Origin: Acidimicrobiales bacterium | Lineage (GTDB): Bacteria > Actinomycetota > Acidimicrobiia > Acidimicrobiales > SZUA-35 | Direction of reading: 5' to 3' | Length of the DNA stretch: 39,385 bases | NCBI GenBank assembly: GCA_020630065.1 | Contig: JAHDCC010000012.1 | Span: forward strand, 70,171 to 109,555 | Part shown: in pieces, positions 1,565-8,518 of the stretch | Layout: each line of letters starts with the position of its first letter | Numbering within the stretch: the stretch's first letter is position 1 | Program-made: the position numbers and the translations under genes | The notes under the pieces: model-generated | Told to the model about the DNA's origin: nothing | The model's database searches: none | What the model saw: the letters and a program-made list of their open reading frames with translations, nothing else

Positions 1565-1972
1565 TTGAAGCTCGGATACACCATCATCTATGTTCCCAAC
1601 ATCGTCGAAGCCGTCCGCTTTTACGAGGACGCGTTCAGTATGGAACGACAGTTCGTGCACCCTGGAGGTGACTACGCAGAGATGGCGACAGGAGGCACTC
1701 TATTAGGTTTTTGTAGTCACGAACTGGCCAAGTCCGTTGTGCCCTGTGGCTTCGCGCCAATCGATCCAGATACTCCCCCCGCCGGTTTCGAAATATCGCT
1801 GACTACCGAAGACGTGGCAGCAGCGTTCAACCACGCAGTGAGTTCGGGAGCGAAACCAATAGCTGAACCAGAAGAAAAACCCTGGGGACAGACAGCCTCA
1901 TACGTGCGTGACCCTTTTGGGGTTCTCGTAGGCATTGTGTCACCTATCGACCCGGCTTCACAACAGGGTTGA
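1565..1972 (+). CDS. VOC (glyoxalase/bleomycin-resistance/dioxygenase fold) protein
   Basis: A 135-residue single-domain VOC protein. The N-terminus KLGYTIIYVPNIVEAVRFYE is the classic first strand-helix of the fold, and the C-terminus AEPEEKPWGQTASYVRDPFG supplies the paired motif with WGQ and the final DPFGVLVGI strand. Such proteins are usually metal-dependent isomerases, dioxygenases or drug-binding proteins; the substrate cannot be read here. I prefer the TTG start at 1565 because AAGGA at 1552-1556 then sits 8 nt upstream; a TTG at 1559 would leave only 2 nt. The 3' end overlaps the convergent copper chaperone gene by 15 nt, so no terminator separates them. Confidence 0.82.
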   Translation: MKLGYTIIYVPNIVEAVRFYEDAFSMERQFVHPGGDYAEMATGGTLLGFCSHELAKSVVPCGFAPIDPDTPPAGFEISLTTEDVAAAFNHAVSSGAKPIAEPEEKPWGQTASYVRDPFGVLVGIVSPIDPASQQG

Positions 1973-2158
1973 ACCGTAACCAGCCTCATCGATTGCCGAC
2001 GTTATCTCATCGAGGGCCCCACCGGTGACACTAACCGTCTTGGCGTCGGCGTCGACGTCAACCGTAGACACCCCGTCCAACGACGAAACCTCCGCAATAA
2101 TAGCGTTGTGGCAGTGTTCGCAATGCATATCGGGAACCGAGAATATTCGTGTCGCCAT
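1958..2158 (-). CDS. copZ: CopZ-like copper chaperone (single HMA domain)
   Basis: A 66-residue protein made of one heavy-metal-associated domain. The metal site is MHCEHC (CxxC) at about residues 11-16, followed by the usual babbab pattern and a GYGSTLL end. CopZ-type proteins carry Cu(I) in the cytoplasm and hand it to CopA or to a copper sensor. The ATG at 2158 has AAAGG about 8 nt upstream on the minus strand; longer in-frame extensions reach back into copA and are less likely. The gene starts 28 nt after the copA stop and is very probably cotranscribed with it. Its 3' end overlaps the convergent VOC gene. Confidence 0.9.
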   Translation of the reverse strand: MATRIFSVPDMHCEHCHNAIIAEVSSLDGVSTVDVDADAKTVSVTGGALDEITSAIDEAGYGSTLL

Positions 2159-2186
2159 ATTCGTTGACCTTTCTTGATACGTACTT

Positions 2187-4352
2187 TCAACTTGTTGATC
2201 TATAACCTTCGAAACTTCTAAGCCGAAGACTATTAGAGGCAACAAAGAGCGATGATAGCCCCATTGCCCCCGCCGCGATCATGGGGTTTAACAAACCAAG
2301 TGCAGCGAGTGGAATGGCAGCGGTGTTGTAGGCGAACGCCCAGAATAGGTTTCCCTTGATCGTTGACAGCGTCCGTCTGGCTAGGGCGATTGCATCGGCT
2401 ACCGCTCTGGGGTCGCCGCTCACTATTGTCAGATCTGACGCTTCGATGGCGACATCGGTGCCCGTACCGATTGCGATACCCAGATCAGCTTGTGCAAGTG
2501 CTGGAGCGTCGTTAATGCCGTCTCCGACCATAGCTACGCGTGCGCCTTGGGTTTGAAGACGGCTGATTTCGGCCGCCTTTTCGCCTGGGAGTACCTGCGC
2601 GATTACCCGGTCGATGCCGACTTTGGCTGCCACTGCGTCGGCGGTTCGCTGGTTGTCGCCAGTCACTAACGCAATCGACATTCCTTGTTCGCGAAGCGCC
2701 AACACCGCATCACGAGACGCCGGTTTGATCTGGTCTGTGACAACAAGAACCGCTTCGGCTTTCCCTTCACGCCCGACCAGAACCGCTGTAGAACCAGTGC
2801 CTTCGGCAGTGGTCGCCAGTTTGTCGACCTCAGGTGAAACCTCGTCGAACAACGAACGACGGCCAACTCCGACCAGTTTGTTATCTACTAGCCCGGTTAC
2901 ACCAATGCCCGGATGGTTCTTAAAGTCCTCGACATTCAGTTTTTCACGGTGAGCCGCCGCTATCGCCTCTCCGATTGGGTGTTCCGAACGTGACTCAACC
3001 GAAGCAGCAATCTGTACCAGGTAGTTGGCGTCAGTTGGGGGAACGTCTGGCAGCTCAACACCCTCGAATTTCATCTTCCCTTCGGTGATGGTTCCCGTCT
3101 TATCGAATACCACAACGTTAACTGCTCGGGTATCTTCGAGAACTTCCCCACCCTTGATCAGGAGACCTTGTTGCGCTCCTCGACCGGTGCCAACCATGAT
3201 CGCTAATGGAGTTGCCAAACCCAACGCACATGGACAGGCGATGATCAGAACCGCCACGGCCGAGGTGAATGCTCGATCCAGGTCGCCGCTTACCATAATC
3301 CACCCGACTAAGGTGGCAACTGCGACAACGATAGCGGTAGGCACAAAGAACGCCGATACCTGGTCGGCCAGCCTCTGGACCTGTGCTTTACTTCCTTGGG
3401 CTTTGTCTACCAAGTCCGTTATTTGGGCCAGTACGGTATCGGCACCAACTTTGGTTGCTTCCACTACGAGTGATCCGTTTGTGTTGGTGGTTCCGCCGAC
3501 CACGTTGTCGCCGGTCGACACATCAACGGGCACCGGTTCACCCGTGACCATAGACATATCAACTGCCGAGTGACCGTCCCGTACGGTGCCATCGGTAGCA
3601 ACTTTTTCTCCCGGGCGAACCACAAAACGCATACCGGGGAGAATCGCCGATGGGTCGATGTCTGTTCCGTCTTCGAGACGTACGACTTGTGTGCCTAAGT
3701 CGGCCAATGCCCGGATTGCGTCACCAGATCTCTTCTTTGCCTTGGCTTCAAGCCACTTGCCGGCCAGGATCAGCGTGACTATTACGGCTCCTGTCTCGAA
3801 ATATATTTCGCCCTTACCGAGAGTCAGGCCAAATATCGATCCGACCAAGACTGTGGTCGACCAACTCCATGATGCGACTGACCCGAGCGAGACGAGGGTA
3901 TCCATAGTCGTTGACCCGTGTCGAATATTCATGCTCGCGGCACGGTGGAAGGGCCAGCCGGACCAGAAAATGGCTGGCGTAGCCAAGGCAGCGACTACCC
4001 ATCTCCAACCAGCAAATTGTGTTGCTTCGACCATCGACAAAACCATCGCCGGCACCGTGAACAGTGCCGCTACTATCAGTCGCTGTTTAAGTTCGGTTTC
4101 TCGCCGAACATGCACCGAATCTTGGTCGGCGGAATCTACAACCACATACCCAAGGCCAGTTATGGTGGCCCGGACTTCGTCCTCGATAGCATCGTCAGAA
4201 TGCAACACTGACACTCGACCGGTAGCGAAATTGGCGTGGGAGTCTGACACCCCATCGAGTTTGGCCAGCTTTCGTTGGATCCTGCTCGAACATGCGGCAC
4301 AACTCATGCCATCAACAACCAGGTCTAGTCTGTTATCGGAGCGAACGGTCAT
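2187..4352 (-). CDS. copA: Copper-exporting P1B-type ATPase
   Basis: A 721-residue P1B-1 ATPase that pumps Cu(I) out of the cytoplasm. One N-terminal HMA domain carries CAAC (C18, C21). The membrane metal site is CPC at residues 373-375 (CPCALGLATP). The phosphorylation site is DKTGT at D417, the SEHP histidine motif follows, and the hinge is GDGINDAP. Eight membrane segments are expected for the family and hydrophobic stretches fit. The ATG at 4352 is chosen over a TTG one codon upstream. There is no Shine-Dalgarno; instead a -10-like hexamer ends 6 nt upstream of the ATG, suggesting a leaderless mRNA under a CueR-type promoter. It lies directly downstream of its MerR-family regulator and upstream of copZ. 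Confidence 0.96.
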   Translation of the reverse strand: MTVRSDNRLDLVVDGMSCAACSSRIQRKLAKLDGVSDSHANFATGRVSVLHSDDAIEDEVRATITGLGYVVVDSADQDSVHVRRETELKQRLIVAALFTVPAMVLSMVEATQFAGWRWVVAALATPAIFWSGWPFHRAASMNIRHGSTTMDTLVSLGSVASWSWSTTVLVGSIFGLTLGKGEIYFETGAVIVTLILAGKWLEAKAKKRSGDAIRALADLGTQVVRLEDGTDIDPSAILPGMRFVVRPGEKVATDGTVRDGHSAVDMSMVTGEPVPVDVSTGDNVVGGTTNTNGSLVVEATKVGADTVLAQITDLVDKAQGSKAQVQRLADQVSAFFVPTAIVVAVATLVGWIMVSGDLDRAFTSAVAVLIIACPCALGLATPLAIMVGTGRGAQQGLLIKGGEVLEDTRAVNVVVFDKTGTITEGKMKFEGVELPDVPPTDANYLVQIAASVESRSEHPIGEAIAAAHREKLNVEDFKNHPGIGVTGLVDNKLVGVGRRSLFDEVSPEVDKLATTAEGTGSTAVLVGREGKAEAVLVVTDQIKPASRDAVLALREQGMSIALVTGDNQRTADAVAAKVGIDRVIAQVLPGEKAAEISRLQTQGARVAMVGDGINDAPALAQADLGIAIGTGTDVAIEASDLTIVSGDPRAVADAIALARRTLSTIKGNLFWAFAYNTAAIPLAALGLLNPMIAAGAMGLSSLFVASNSLRLRSFEGYRSTS

Positions 4353-4358
4353 CAACCC

Positions 4359-4390
4359 AGTCTATACCTTCCAGCCAACTGGAAGGTCAA
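4359..4390 (-). promoter_or_regulatory. CueR-type copper-responsive promoter/operator of copA
   Basis: On the minus strand -35 TTGACC (4385-4390) is followed by either TATAGA (4361-4366, 18-bp spacer) or TAGACT (4359-4364, 20-bp spacer). Between them lies a perfect dyad with 9-bp arms, ACCTTCCAG/CTGGAAGGT, around CCAA (4366-4387). This is the ACCTTCC...GGAAGGT operator known for CueR/MerR-family activators, which act on over-long spacers. TAGACT places +1 on the A of the copA ATG. The site begins 1 nt after the regulator's stop codon. Confidence 0.88.
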
Positions 4391-4391
4391 G

Positions 4392-4799
4392 TCATTGTTT
4401 CTCGGCGGCCAGAATCGTCTGACAGCGGTTCGGGTCAACACAGGACGACGCATCAAGAGACTTTGCTCGTTCTACTAGAGACATCAACACTCCCCTGGTT
4501 TCCTGCAAGCGTTCAATCTGGGAGTCAATATCAACTAGATGCCGTTCCAAAAGCATTGTGGTGTGGGCACACGAACTTTTACCCGACCGCTTAATCTCAA
4601 TGATCGTTGTTATTTCTGCCAGGGTCAAACCGCTCGCCTGGGCGTCACGGATAAACGCCAATTGTTCAACCGCCGCTGGTTCATAGTTGCGGTAACCAGA
4701 TTCAGTTCTCATCGGTTCCGGCAAAATCCCAAGAGACTCGTAGTAACGGATCGTCTTGGTGGTGACACCTGTCAGCTCGGCTAATGCCCCGATTTTCAT
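4392..4799 (-). CDS. MerR-family copper-responsive regulator (CueR-like)
   Basis: A 135-residue MerR regulator. Residues 1-70 form the winged HTH (MKIGALAELTGVTTKTIRYYE, then SGYRNYEP), followed by the long dimerisation helix (TTMLLERHLVDIDSQIERLQ). Metal-ligand candidates are C77 at the start of that helix and the C-terminal pair C120 and C126 (SSCVDPNRC). CueR uses a C-terminal Cys pair for Cu(I), so the pair and the gene context point to copper; three Cys also resembles Hg(II)-sensing MerR, so another soft metal is possible. The ATG at 4799 has no Shine-Dalgarno but a TATCGT hexamer exactly 6 nt upstream. It likely activates copA/copZ through the dyad just after its own stop. Confidence 0.9.
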   Translation of the reverse strand: MKIGALAELTGVTTKTIRYYESLGILPEPMRTESGYRNYEPAAVEQLAFIRDAQASGLTLAEITTIIEIKRSGKSSCAHTTMLLERHLVDIDSQIERLQETRGVLMSLVERAKSLDASSCVDPNRCQTILAAEKQ

Positions 4800-4842: not shown

Positions 4843-5706
4843 CTATGCCGCGTGAACCTGTGCGCCAACGGCGTTTCGAACCGACTGCACAACCAACATG
4901 AGGATGAAGATCGAAACCGAACACAACGCCATCGTGGCAGATGGAGCAGAACCATAGTGCCAGCTCAGCAACAATCCCAGAAAAACTGAGATGGAGCCGA
5001 GCAGAATTCCTGTGGCCATTATCATCGGGACTCGTCGTGCCACCAAAGTCCCGGCAGCTGGCGGAGCTATCAGGAACGCAAAAACCAGCAAATTTCCGAC
5101 AGCCTCAAACGAGGTCACGATCGCACCTGCAACAAGCACAAGAAGGACTAGTTGTGACAGACCCGGACGTAGTCCAAGCAGTTTTGCTTGTGATTCATCG
5201 AACGTCATCACTAAAAACGAGCGGTAGAAGATAACCGTTACTACGACCGTCACGATTGTCGCTACGGCCTGGCGTATGATGTCAGCGTTATCGACTCCCG
5301 TGATCGAACCAAACAGAAATCGATTTAGGTCCCCTACGTAGGATCCGGACTTGCTCGACATGATGACCACCGCCAGGGCAAGAAACCCAACAAACAGTAC
5401 GCCAATCGACGCATCTTCAGGTAGCGGGGAATGAGATTTGATGAGGTTTGTTCCGAGAATCATCGCTATGGCGGCGACAGCTGCGCCTATGGAAGTATTG
5501 ACGCCGAAGATGAACGCTATGGCGATTCCTGGCAGCACACCGTGGGCCAGGGCATCACCCAAGAAGCTCATTCCGCGTAGTACGACCCACGTTCCGACAA
5601 CCGATGTTGCCACAACTGTCAGCAAACCAGCAACGAGCGCGTTAAGCATGAACCCTTCAGCGAAGGGGGCTATCCACCAGTCATAGGTGTGGTCGAGAAC
5701 ACTCAT
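4843..5706 (-). CDS. ABC-3 family metal (Zn/Mn) ABC transporter permease, ZnuB/MntB-like
   Basis: A 287-residue polytopic membrane protein of the ABC-3 (ZnuB/MntB) family, with about eight hydrophobic segments. Diagnostic stretches are VVLRGMSFLGDALAHGVLPG near the N-terminus and AVGNLLVFAFLIAPPAAGTL in the C-terminal half. These permeases import Zn(II), Mn(II) or Fe(II) with a periplasmic/lipoprotein binding protein and an ATPase. A matching binding protein lies 1.6 kb upstream on the same strand, but no ATPase gene lies between or elsewhere in the window. The start is ATG 5706; a Fur/Zur-like box sits 57 nt upstream. The SoxR-like gene precedes it by 75 nt, so read-through is possible. The metal is unproven; zinc is the best guess from the binding protein. 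Confidence 0.92.
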   Translation of the reverse strand: MSVLDHTYDWWIAPFAEGFMLNALVAGLLTVVATSVVGTWVVLRGMSFLGDALAHGVLPGIAIAFIFGVNTSIGAAVAAIAMILGTNLIKSHSPLPEDASIGVLFVGFLALAVVIMSSKSGSYVGDLNRFLFGSITGVDNADIIRQAVATIVTVVVTVIFYRSFLVMTFDESQAKLLGLRPGLSQLVLLVLVAGAIVTSFEAVGNLLVFAFLIAPPAAGTLVARRVPMIMATGILLGSISVFLGLLLSWHYGSAPSATMALCSVSIFILMLVVQSVRNAVGAQVHAA

Positions 5707-5762: not shown

Positions 5763-5777
5763 TGAGAATGACTCTCG
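5763..5777. promoter_or_regulatory. Fur/Zur-like box upstream of the metal permease
   Basis: TGAGAATGACTCTCG, an imperfect 7-1-7 inverted repeat similar in layout to actinobacterial Zur/Fur boxes (TGAAAATGATTTTCA type). Its first eight bases are identical to a box at 8504-8518 upstream of the binding-protein gene. It lies in the short gap after the SoxR-like gene. The promoter it would control is not obvious. Confidence 0.45.
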
Positions 5778-5781
5778 CTAT

Positions 5782-6189
5782 CTAGAAATGGTCTGCGGGA
5801 TTTTGCACCGAAGGAATACCGCATTCGGAGATCGCCTTGCACCCACATCGAACGAACTCTTCGAGTAGACGTATCATTGCTTCAATTTCTTCTTGTTGTT
5901 GACGCAGCTCGAATACTTTTTCGGTGATCAGCGAAGCAGATGAACGTGTGGTCCCACTAAGCAGCTGAGTTATCTCGTCTAACGAGAATCCGGCTCGCTG
6001 GGCGGTGCGAACAAATCCAACCTGTGGGACTGCAGTTTCGGAGAAACGTCTCTGCCCGCTAACCCGGGTAACCGGGGAGACGATACCTAGCTCGTCGTAG
6101 TATCGCAGCGCCGAAACGGTAACCCCGGTTCTCTTTGCTAACTGTCCGATACTCAACAGATCGCCGTCTAGGTCTGATGTTGTGGTCAT
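5782..6189 (-). CDS. SoxR-like MerR-family regulator with an incomplete cluster motif
   Basis: A 135-residue MerR-family protein: HTH at residues 12-60 (LSIGQLAKRTGVTVSALRYYD, VSGQRRFSE), coiled-coil helix around 88-112, and a C-terminal metal motif. SoxR binds a redox-active [2Fe-2S] cluster with C-x2-C-x-C-x5-C. Here C115, C117 and C123 match the last three ligands, but the first is F112. The protein may bind a cluster differently, bind a metal, or sense something else. The start is ATG 6189 with AAGGGG upstream. It is almost certainly autoregulated through a SoxR-box promoter (6222-6252). The gene precedes the metal permease by 75 nt. Family membership is firm; the signal is unknown. Confidence 0.88.
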   Translation of the reverse strand: MTTTSDLDGDLLSIGQLAKRTGVTVSALRYYDELGIVSPVTRVSGQRRFSETAVPQVGFVRTAQRAGFSLDEITQLLSGTTRSSASLITEKVFELRQQQEEIEAMIRLLEEFVRCGCKAISECGIPSVQNPADHF

Positions 6190-6221
6190 TGGGCGCCCCT
6201 TGTTCGTCTGCTGATACCAGC

Positions 6222-6252
6222 ATCATATGACCTCAAGTGGGCTTGAGGTCAA
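6222..6252 (-). promoter_or_regulatory. SoxR-box promoter in front of the SoxR-like gene
   Basis: On the minus strand -35 TTGACC (6247-6252), a 19-bp spacer and -10 TATGAT (6222-6227). The spacer is filled by a perfect dyad, TGACCTCAAG/CTTGAGGTCA around a 4-nt centre (6228-6251). The core CCTCAAG-N4-CTTGAGG is the SoxR box of the enterobacterial soxS promoter, and 19 bp is the long spacer expected for a MerR-family activator. Predicted +1 is near 6215, giving a 26-nt leader with a ribosome-binding site. Confidence 0.88.
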
Positions 6253-7073: not shown

Positions 7074-7334
7074 TTACTGAGAATTTAGGGATCTCTTAGA
7101 AAACCAGACCGCTCGATCACCTAATCCAACGCCGAGAAGCGACAGGGCGATACTGGACGCAGTCGGGCTTGTTGGCCCTGTCGCCAACTGCGAGAGCTGC
7201 TCTGTCACGACCAGGGCGACCATAACCATACTTGACTGAAGAATGGTTAGTCGGCCCACGGTCGTGATGTTGCATTTCATCAACCAACCAAGAACGAAGG
7301 TGATAAACGCTATGACGAGAAGTCGCGCTATCAC
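7074..7334 (-). CDS. Small membrane protein coupled to the metal-binding protein gene
   Basis: An 86-residue protein with two or three hydrophobic segments (LLVIAFITFVLGWLM near the N-terminus; a central region about 30-50; ASSIALSLLGVGLG near the end) and a basic C-terminus. I do not recognise the family. The GTG start at 7334 overlaps the TGA of the upstream metal-binding-protein gene as GTGA, indicating translational coupling. That suggests a role with the metal importer or simply a membrane function in the same operon; this is inference. Confidence 0.6.
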   Translation of the reverse strand: MIARLLVIAFITFVLGWLMKCNITTVGRLTILQSSMVMVALVVTEQLSQLATGPTSPTASSIALSLLGVGLGDRAVWFSKRSLNSQ

Positions 7335-8443
7335 TCGTTCCCGGAGAGGGCGTCTGATATCAGCGTCGAGTTTGAACGCATGAAGTCGACGTAGTTGGTG
7401 GAATCACCTAACGTGTCGGTCTGGAGTATCACGACCTCGACGACGTCTAATGAAGACGCCAGTTGTTCTGCGGTATCAGATGAGGATGTCGCATCAACAA
7501 AGATCGCACTGACCGAATTCTGTTCAAGCTCGTCGGATAGTTCCGCTAGCTCGGCCGGGTTGGCCTCGGTGAGGGTTGAGGATCCTGGGATTACGGTCCC
7601 TAATAGCTCGAAGTCGTAGTGATCAGCGAAGTAGCCTAGCGACTCGTGGTTCGTGACGAGTTTACGAGAGCCGTCTGGGATCGTTGCTAATGTTTCCGAA
7701 ACTTCCGTATCCAGGTCTTCCAATTGCTTCTGGTAGTCCTCAACGCAGCTATCGAGTGAGCCCGATTCGAGTTCGAACTCGGTTTCTATTTGTCCTGCCA
7801 GCTCTGGAATAACAGTTGATACTCGTTGCGGGTCAAACCAAAAGTGAGGATCTCCACCTGAGTGATCATGCCCCTCGTGGCCTTCTTCGTCATCATGGCC
7901 TTCTTCGTCATCATGGCCTTCTTGGTCATCATGGCCTTCTTCGTCATCATGGCCTTCTTCGTCATCGTGGCCTTCTTCGTCGCTGTGGCCCTCTTCATCG
8001 CTGTGGCCCTCACCGCCGAATTCGAGAATTTCAACGTGGTCGGTGAGGGTGAAGACTGGGGTACCTGATTCTTCTACGACCGAAAGAGTGTCTTCGAGAC
8101 CTTCTTCTAGACCTAGACCATTGGCAACAATTAGCGAGGCCGATTCCATATCAGCTCTACTCGCCAACGGTAATTCGAAACTGTGAGGATCAACGCCAGA
8201 TGGAATCAACGCTTCGACTTCTATGCCACCTTCGCAAGCAACGTTCGAAACAACATCGGCCCACAAACTGGTCGTCACCAAAAGAGCTCCCGAGCCGGTT
8301 GATTCAACTTCAGGACCTAAGGTTGAATCGTCCGAAGCCGAGTCATTCGATGCCGAACCACACGATGACGCTACTAGGGCAATAACAGCCGGAGCCAAGA
8401 ACGGCCGCCAGCTTCGTCGACGTGGGGTTTGAGAACTACGCAT
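7331..8443 (-). CDS. Zinc/manganese ABC transporter substrate-binding lipoprotein with His/Asp repeat (ZnuA-like)
   Basis: A 370-residue cluster-9 (ZnuA/TroA-type) binding protein. The signal peptide ends in lipobox VASSC. Metal ligands expected for the family are visible: H in SGVDPHSFEL, H in GDPHFWFDP, H in TNHESLGYF, and an acidic residue in FVDATSS. A long acidic-histidine loop of about eight EGHxDE units precedes DPHFWFDP; such loops in ZnuA proteins recruit or buffer zinc. The ATG at 8443 has AGGA about 10 nt upstream and precedes the signal peptide; the longer frame to 8497 lacks a reason to be used. A Fur/Zur-like box overlaps the upstream promoter. The ABC-3 permease at 4843-5706 is the probable partner; no ATPase is nearby. 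Confidence 0.93.
   Translation of the reverse strand: MRSSQTPRRRSWRPFLAPAVIALVASSCGSASNDSASDDSTLGPEVESTGSGALLVTTSLWADVVSNVACEGGIEVEALIPSGVDPHSFELPLASRADMESASLIVANGLGLEEGLEDTLSVVEESGTPVFTLTDHVEILEFGGEGHSDEEGHSDEEGHDDEEGHDDEEGHDDQEGHDDEEGHDDEEGHEGHDHSGGDPHFWFDPQRVSTVIPELAGQIETEFELESGSLDSCVEDYQKQLEDLDTEVSETLATIPDGSRKLVTNHESLGYFADHYDFELLGTVIPGSSTLTEANPAELAELSDELEQNSVSAIFVDATSSSDTAEQLASSLDVVEVVILQTDTLGDSTNYVDFMRSNSTLISDALSGNE
7878..8003 (-). repeat. 18-bp tandem repeat encoding the EGHDDE metal-binding loop
   Basis: Seven head-to-tail copies of an 18-bp unit (plus-strand TGGCCTTCTTCGTCATCA and variants) within the metal-binding-protein gene. In frame they encode EGH(S/D)D(E/Q) units. Four of the first five differ from one another by at most one base, while the copies nearest 8003 are more diverged. 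Because the unit is a multiple of three, copy-number changes would keep the frame. Confidence 0.92.
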
Positions 8444-8496
8444 TAGGAACCGTCCTAGGGGATTCGTATCAAAGTGTGGTAAGGGGAACTCCACCA

Positions 8497-8518
8497 ATAA
8501 TAGTGAGAATGGTTCTTA
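8497..8518 (-). promoter_or_regulatory. Promoter with Fur/Zur-like box for the metal-binding protein operon
   Basis: A -10 hexamer TATTAT on the minus strand (8497-8502) lies beside TGAGAATGGTTCTTA (plus strand, 8504-8518), an imperfect 7-1-7 inverted repeat. The first eight bases match the box at 5763-5777. A repressor bound here would occlude the promoter spacer, fitting zinc- or iron-dependent repression. The -35 (about GTGGAA) is poor. Confidence 0.55.

Follow-up and report, generated by a model that had tools for sequence, protein, structure and literature searches.

A MerR-family regulator with three loop cysteines behind a SoxR-type operator: a candidate soft metal(loid) activator separate from SoxR

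What does a MerR-family regulator sense when its gene stands behind an exact SoxR-type palindrome and its product keeps only part of the SoxR cluster loop? Such a gene is found in a 39,385-nucleotide stretch of DNA from an Acidimicrobiales bacterium (contig JAHDCC010000012.1), which is referred to here, at its full length, as the window. It was originally predicted that this gene is driven by a SoxR box within a 19-bp spacer, that its product has three of the four SoxR cluster ligands with Phe in the first position, and that DNA recognition is kept while sensing has changed. The sequence observations themselves hold. The palindrome has zero mismatches, and the sole other site in the window with three or fewer mismatches has three. 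The protein has exactly three cysteines, none of them outside the loop F112-x2-C115-x-C117-x5-C123, which defines what we call the three-cysteine (3C) group. SoxR needs a C-x2-C-x-C-x5-C loop, whose first cysteine is replaced here by Phe112. The features considered below are collected in Table 1.

Table 1. Positions of the regulator, its predicted operator, its neighbours, and related sites elsewhere in the same genome (window coordinates unless a contig is named)
Feature	Position	Strand	Remarks
MerR-family regulator gene, 135 aa	5782-6189	-	ATG at 6189
Loop codons	5821-5856	-	Phe112 5856-5854, Cys115 5847-5845, Cys117 5841-5839, Cys123 5823-5821; from window sequence and alignment
MerR-type promoter	6222-6252	-	-35 TTGACC 6252-6247, 19-bp spacer, -10 TATGAT 6227-6222
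SoxR-type palindrome CCTCAAG-N4-CTTGAGG, CCTCAAGTGGGCTTGAGG	6231-6248	.	Predicted operator of the regulator
AztB-like zinc/metal ABC permease	4843-5706	-	Next gene downstream, starts 75 bp from the regulator
Zur-like site TGAGAATGACTCTCG (tentative)	5763-5777	+	In front of the permease
Zur-like site TGAGAATGGTTCTTA (tentative)	8504-8518	+	In front of the AztC/ZnuA-like binding protein gene
AztC/ZnuA-like zinc-binding protein gene (His-rich product)	7331-8497	-	Family model match
Second MerR, CadR/CueR-like	4392-4799	-	3' of the permease, same strand
P-type ATPase	2187-4355	-	After the second MerR
HMA protein	1961-2170	-	After the P-type ATPase
CCxF gene and small membrane protein	contig C8 (G000), L084 5212-5747	-	Own box TTGACCTCATGTTGACCTGAGGTTC-TAAGGT, away from the regulator
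Third, weaker box TTGACCTCAAGGAGACTCGAGGTTGTACGTT	contig C41 (G000), L085 4708-4738	-	Precedes small membrane protein gene 4245-4709

The protein has the features of the MerR superfamily, namely a MerR helix-turn-helix, a dimerisation helix, and a promoter of the type with a 19-20 bp spacer, and a domain search places it above the cut-offs of PF13411, PF00376, and PF09278. However, it scores 71.8 bits against the SoxR model TIGR01950, 45 bits short of the cut-off of 116.9, and in the tree described below it falls outside the SoxR clade; consequently, the description "SoxR-like" is not borne out in the strict sense. The protein is also far below the curated cut-offs of the CueR, CadR, and ZntR models TIGR02044, TIGR02047, and TIGR02043 (60.2, 44.8, and 55.9 bits vs 147.4, 151.45, and 167.95, respectively). 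In an AlphaFold monomer model (pLDDT 89.7, pTM 0.72), a long helix (residues 83-115) stops at Cys115, with Cys117 and Cys123 directly beyond it. When PDB matches of this model are ordered by E-value, SoxR comes first (TM 0.54), followed by CadR, NmlR, and the mercury-responsive MerR (Hg-MerR), which is also the closest solved sequence. A SoxR query at an E-value of 0.001 retrieved only the window regulator and the neighbouring MerR from the window's genome (3.7 Mb, 95% complete), and judged from these searches the source organism seems to have no four-cysteine SoxR. As a separate observation, the tail NPADHF (window 5785-5802, minus strand) resembles the NPxD found in SoxR after the last cluster cysteine; it is absent from the 16 other rows of the regulator's clade and may have arisen by chance.

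In an alignment of 22 rows, Phe112 occupies the column of the first SoxR cluster cysteine, and the cysteines of CxCx5C line up with the last three of SoxR. An earlier alignment of 13 rows had instead placed a 7-residue gap at this position, and there is no cysteine in either alignment. Among the 17 rows of the regulator's clade, the position holds Ile in 5, Val in 4, Met in 4, Phe in 2, and Ala and Ser in 1 each. The original prediction had staked itself on the fourth cysteine being missing from close homologues as well, and it is missing from all 17, a result that supports the idea of a changed sensing function. The idea that Phe112 is a recent point mutation can thus be discarded. The C-x-C pair and the third cysteine with its x5 spacing are equally invariant (17/17). 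No conserved ligand residue is found in the tail or at the two positions that follow. An acidic residue occupies the third position in 10 of the 17 rows, where the window protein has Arg, so a further ligand remains a slight possibility. An extra tail cysteine occurs in 9 of the 17 rows, the window protein not being among them, and a tail histidine occurs in the window protein only.

The clade has a support of 99/96, which becomes 99/98 when the motif columns are removed. Of the 17 four-cysteine SoxR rows in the tree, 15 form a group of their own (support 100/99) apart from it; the Hg-MerR rows group elsewhere, and the CueR row lies outside the window's side. Within its three-row subclade the window regulator has the longest branch. 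In all, 36 of the 68 tree rows have CxCx5C, the window protein among them; the tree requires five changes for this state, and a single origin is not rejected (p-AU 0.199). A class-wide draw found a member in 7 of 296 genomes, a phylum-wide draw found one in 1 of 396, namely the window itself, and no relative was found among viral contigs. By sequence and phylogeny, then, the regulator belongs with a MerR subfamily that stands apart from SoxR, a clade rather than an odd single protein, and the proposition that it is a SoxR fails on the loop cysteines, the TIGR01950 score, and the clade. The three-cysteine branch is apparently unstudied. Two four-cysteine MerR proteins with the SoxR motif were seen outside the main SoxR clade (loci L058 and L175, the latter on a Streptomyces plasmid), and both have an MFS transporter gene as their divergent neighbour.

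The operator is a constant feature of the clade. It lies in a 19-bp-spaced promoter at 16 of 17 clade loci, the exception being that of the outlying member L046 (locus L051), and a consensus, TTGACcTCAAGTngaCtTGAGGTcgTAnngT, was drawn from 17 sites, these being the 16 clade loci and the site on contig C8 in the window's genome. A 31-nt box pattern, composed after inspection of the clade boxes, has three sites in the 3.7-Mb genome at two or fewer mismatches, compared with none for a reversed control. The boxes at the clade loci and those of other relatives are best-scoring windows, and that of L034 is weakly palindromic (12 of 22). At 13 clade loci the operator precedes a gene for a small protein that we call CCxF, at 1 a CCxF remnant, and at 2 (the window and L093) the regulator itself.

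It had also been proposed that the palindrome ties the protein to SoxR through conserved DNA recognition, and this part of the prediction is not supported. When some 85,000 species genomes were scanned for similarity and the best 80 loci of a longer match list were taken, both half-site cores were present in a similar promoter window at 37 of the 56 loci with other types of MerR gene, or at 38 of 58 when the two SoxR-type loci are counted among the controls. Box scores overlap as well, ranging from 16 to 21 at 11 CxCx5C loci and from 12 to 20 at the 58 others, with 16 or less in 330 shuffles. The operator is therefore widely shared among MerR proteins and is not diagnostic for SoxR, and the rule that a SoxR box means SoxR has to be rejected.

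CCxF is a protein of about 100 to 120 residues with three invariant cysteines (AC...ExxCC). Six sequences gave no Pfam match, and fold searches were uninformative: Foldseek gave no match at an E-value of 0.001 or better, and the best VIA Z was 6.9. At 13 of the remaining 16 clade loci, an intact CCxF gene is the immediate upstream neighbour of the regulator and stands behind the box. A truncated CCxF stands behind the box at L095. No CCxF was found at the L093 locus, whose box, like that of the window, faces the regulator gene, and there is only a weak CCxF match (E 6.6e-8) at L046. In addition, at least six clade loci (L032, L035, L037, L047, L093, and L099) have, as read by eye, a small membrane protein gene 3' of the regulator. 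No CCxF gene is found beside the window regulator; elsewhere in the same genome, however, a CCxF gene and a small membrane protein gene with a matching box of their own are located on contig C8, and this pair is likely a target of the regulator in trans. The outlying L046 differs in another respect: a P-type ATPase gene lies upstream, with the weak CCxF match between it and the regulator gene (L051 5019-5459 and 5529-7529, minus strand).

Relatives with CxCx5C in other phyla mostly have such a partner gene as well. The 80 best loci comprise 22 with CxCx5C and no first cysteine (11 of them clade loci), 2 with four cysteines, and 56 with another pattern. A CCxF or ArsB-type gene is present in the flank at 19 of the 22 CxCx5C loci vs 0 of the 58 others; the corresponding p value of 1.3e-15 does not count as independent evidence, since the loci are related, the list is a best-80 list, and the profiles were partly built from those loci. 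Two matches, H50 and H51, of the same genus and query identity as H49, were left out of the locus survey. Among the 36 CxCx5C rows of the tree, an intact CCxF or ArsB gene is adjacent in 29, and the seven rows without one are the window (with its CCxF in trans), L046, L093, L095, L011, L014, and L165. No partner gene was found at L165, L011, or L014, nor at L176, a CxCx5C locus outside the tree, which had no CCxF match. At the 16 CxCx5C loci outside the clade that were scored, the best 19-bp-spaced box faces a divergent partner, ArsB at 7 and CCxF at 9.

At all seven Cohnella loci, which represent one genus, arsB lies divergent to the regulator, and the box promoter is oriented towards it. Two of these ArsB proteins were scanned and scored 720 and 710 bits, compared with a TIGR00935 cut-off of 415; the first of the two shares 84-89% identity with the remaining five. 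A divergent CCxF gene stands behind the box in Gracilibacillus, in a Chloroflexota genome, and in a Gemmatimonas genome, as well as on three Bacilli plasmids and in three further Bacilli genomes. The wider surroundings, in which most genes were named by eye from translations, vary. Around the copy on a Cytobacillus plasmid are arsR-type, arsC, arsD, arsN1, and SBF-family genes; the genes near a Peribacillus copy (L172) include merR1-merA and one for an "arsenic resistance protein"; and a Paenibacillus copy has no annotated arsenic or mercury gene around it. Three SBF proteins matched no NCBIfam model at an E-value of 1e-10, and no ArsB or SBF/ACR3 gene was detected in the window's genome (95% complete). 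At L172 (3686-3922) and L173 (3666-3917), the gene for a small, Cys-rich membrane protein (ALCCALP) separates the three-cysteine regulator from CCxF. These membrane proteins presumably resemble MerF, for which they gave no Pfam match.

Given all of these findings, we consider it probable that the regulator is a three-thiolate MerR activator for a soft metal(loid), mercury excepted. As the ligand, As(III) or Sb(III) would be preferred to Hg(II). This choice, drawn from gene neighbours in other phyla, is tentative in itself, although it accounts for the larger share of our confidence in such an activator, and it relies on an analogy with the three cysteines of AfArsR, on the Cohnella ArsB behind the box, and on the ars genes in another lineage. 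The failure to detect an ArsB or SBF/ACR3 gene in the window's genome and the mercury genes at two relatives' loci speak against it. AfArsR, an As(III) sensor, uses three cysteines placed close together in a single chain to bind As(III)/Sb(III) (PMC11212059). The likeness concerns the site, together with the arsenic-linked genes near the window's relatives, but not the protein, since AfArsR has an ArsR/SmtB fold rather than a MerR fold. In this model, an apo dimer would sit on the 19-bp-spaced promoter and hold it in an inactive state. The three thiolates of one chain would then bind a soft metal(loid), with As(III) and Sb(III) as the likeliest, and the loaded regulator would activate the promoter by distorting the DNA, in the manner of other MerR proteins. 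In the source organism, it would act on its own gene and, in trans, on the genes for CCxF and the membrane protein that lie together on contig C8, and CCxF, with its three invariant cysteines, would serve as a binding or hand-over partner.

The same three-thiolate site could instead respond to Hg(II) or an organomercurial, held in three-coordinate fashion as in MerR, a reading that we regard as unlikely but as the most serious competitor. Hg-MerR (Tn501) shares with the window regulator the MerR fold, the C-x-C in the loop, and the principle of three cysteines, which coordinate mercury in a planar trigonal arrangement (PMC9909328, as far as its text was available), and the closest solved sequence is that of Hg-MerR. 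The AfArsR loop peptide, moreover, has been studied with Hg(II) as well (PMC11212059, available text). However, the third cysteine of Hg-MerR, C82', comes from the partner subunit (PMC9909328, same text), and it has no counterpart near the start of the long helix in the window regulator, whose cysteines are confined to the loop; in the tree, too, the Hg-MerR rows branch separately. Only two CxCx5C loci had recognisable mercury genes (merB upstream of the regulator in L047 and merR1-merA at L172), whereas ArsB faces the regulator at every one of the seven Cohnella loci. An iron-sulphur cluster held by three cysteines and some other ligand, with the regulator still acting as a redox or NO sensor, is less probable again. 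Clusters with three cysteines do have precedents, both in the IscR-like arrangement of three cysteines plus one further ligand and in three-cysteine [4Fe-4S] clusters. The register of the loop with the last three SoxR cysteines, the place of SoxR as the first structural match of the model, the operator type, and the SoxR query that left room for a takeover of the SoxR role in this genome would all agree with it. Against this stand the missing conserved fourth ligand, for which neither the tail cysteine nor the tail histidine can make up across the clade, and the finding that no CCxF gene occurs at any of 18 four-cysteine SoxR loci within up to 1.5 kb. In SoxR, mutation of any single cluster cysteine leaves no detectable cluster while DNA binding is kept (PMC12818246, available text). 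Because of this and the clade-wide absence of the fourth ligand, a SoxR-type [2Fe-2S] cluster is unlikely here. What the window clade shares with SoxR is thus the MerR fold, the operator type, and three of four loop cysteines in register; it differs in the first cluster cysteine, the family score, the clade, and the linked genes.

Two further readings would do without a soft metal(loid). The regulator could be a thiol or electrophile sensor, in which the CxC pair forms a disulphide or an adduct without any metal. CxC pairs can be redox-active, and AdhR, to judge from the title of a reference, is reportedly a MerR-family regulator of responses to carbonyl electrophiles. Nevertheless, the third cysteine is as invariant as the CxC pair, and the linkage to ArsB and to a three-cysteine CCxF suits metal(loid)s better, so we give this idea little credence. 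Least probable is that the regulator senses Zn, Mn, or Cu on behalf of the adjacent transporter cluster. Certainly, the neighbourhood invites this reading: the permease gene is followed on the same strand by the second MerR, the P-type ATPase, and the HMA protein genes, no terminator-like site was found between the regulator and the permease, and the two may share a transcript. CueR, CadR, and ZntR also resemble the window regulator in promoter architecture and, presumably, in the logic of activation by distortion, although they differ in the cysteine pattern of the loop. But the permease, which falls just under the AztB model cut-off (261 vs 280 bits), has a Zur-like site of its own, and no metal permease was recognised beside the regulator in those clade relatives whose open reading frames were read by eye, where the transporter neighbourhood as a whole was likewise not recognised. 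The second MerR would be the natural regulator of the ATPase, the two with the HMA protein (1958-4799) making up a likely copper cluster, and within the same genome the matching box precedes the CCxF partner. Thus, the original argument for metal sensing survives in part: metal(loid) sensing remains plausible, but the permease has to be set aside as evidence for the ligand.

The Zur-like sites themselves follow the pattern TGAGAATGnYTCTnR, which has two copies in the window and no more. Expectation is 0.19 copies and 1 of 100 shuffles reaches two, figures that are optimistic since the pattern was drawn from its own two sites. A looser version has six sites in the genome vs one for a control, and a generic Zur consensus has no match in front of the permease. 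No gene for the ATPase of a zinc ABC importer was seen among the open reading frames between the permease and the binding protein gene.

To our knowledge, regulation in response to arsenite or antimonite is otherwise known only for ArsR-family repressors. In the available parts of the literature compared, MerR-type activators are described for mercury, copper, gold, zinc, cadmium, lead, cobalt, and redox stress, and none is named for arsenic. One review of the MerR family covers Cu, Cd, Hg, Zn, and SoxR sites, and the stem "arsen" is absent from its main text as available (PMC9909328); a paper on Frankia lists, for the family, roles in copper/silver, gold, mercury, zinc, cadmium, lead, and cobalt responses, oxidative stress, and non-metal responses (PMC4531530, in part); and "MerR" is absent from the main text, as available, of a review of arsenic resistance genes (PMC6205960). 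No published report of the three-cysteine MerR group was found among the matches listed for MerR with arsenic, SoxR, or the motif, or for cluster-less SoxR-like proteins, a search that covers the subscription literature thinly. The three-cysteine group is a concrete candidate: its operator is defined, its site of three thiols is clear, and the protein family linked to it is uncharacterised. It is conceivable, though we would not yet wager on it, that CxCx5C proteins are widespread MerR-family activators for arsenite/antimonite, or a related soft metal(loid), working with CCxF as a new three-cysteine binding protein, and that the iron-sulphur site of SoxR stems from such a three-thiolate loop by the gain of one cysteine. 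If the three-cysteine loop were ancestral, this would provide a route from a metal(loid) switch to an iron-sulphur redox switch. A more immediate caution is that a "SoxR box" does not identify a SoxR regulon.

The CCxF link exists outside the CxCx5C group too. CCxF genes without an adjacent three-cysteine regulator (L087-L090) also have, by eye, MerR-type promoters with a 19-bp spacer, and on four proteobacterial plasmids CCxF lies beside other types of MerR gene, near SBF-type or merA genes. On two Rhodococcus plasmids (L052 4512-5291 and L053 4500-5291), CCxF is fused to a MerR regulator in one chain, with an SBF gene adjacent.
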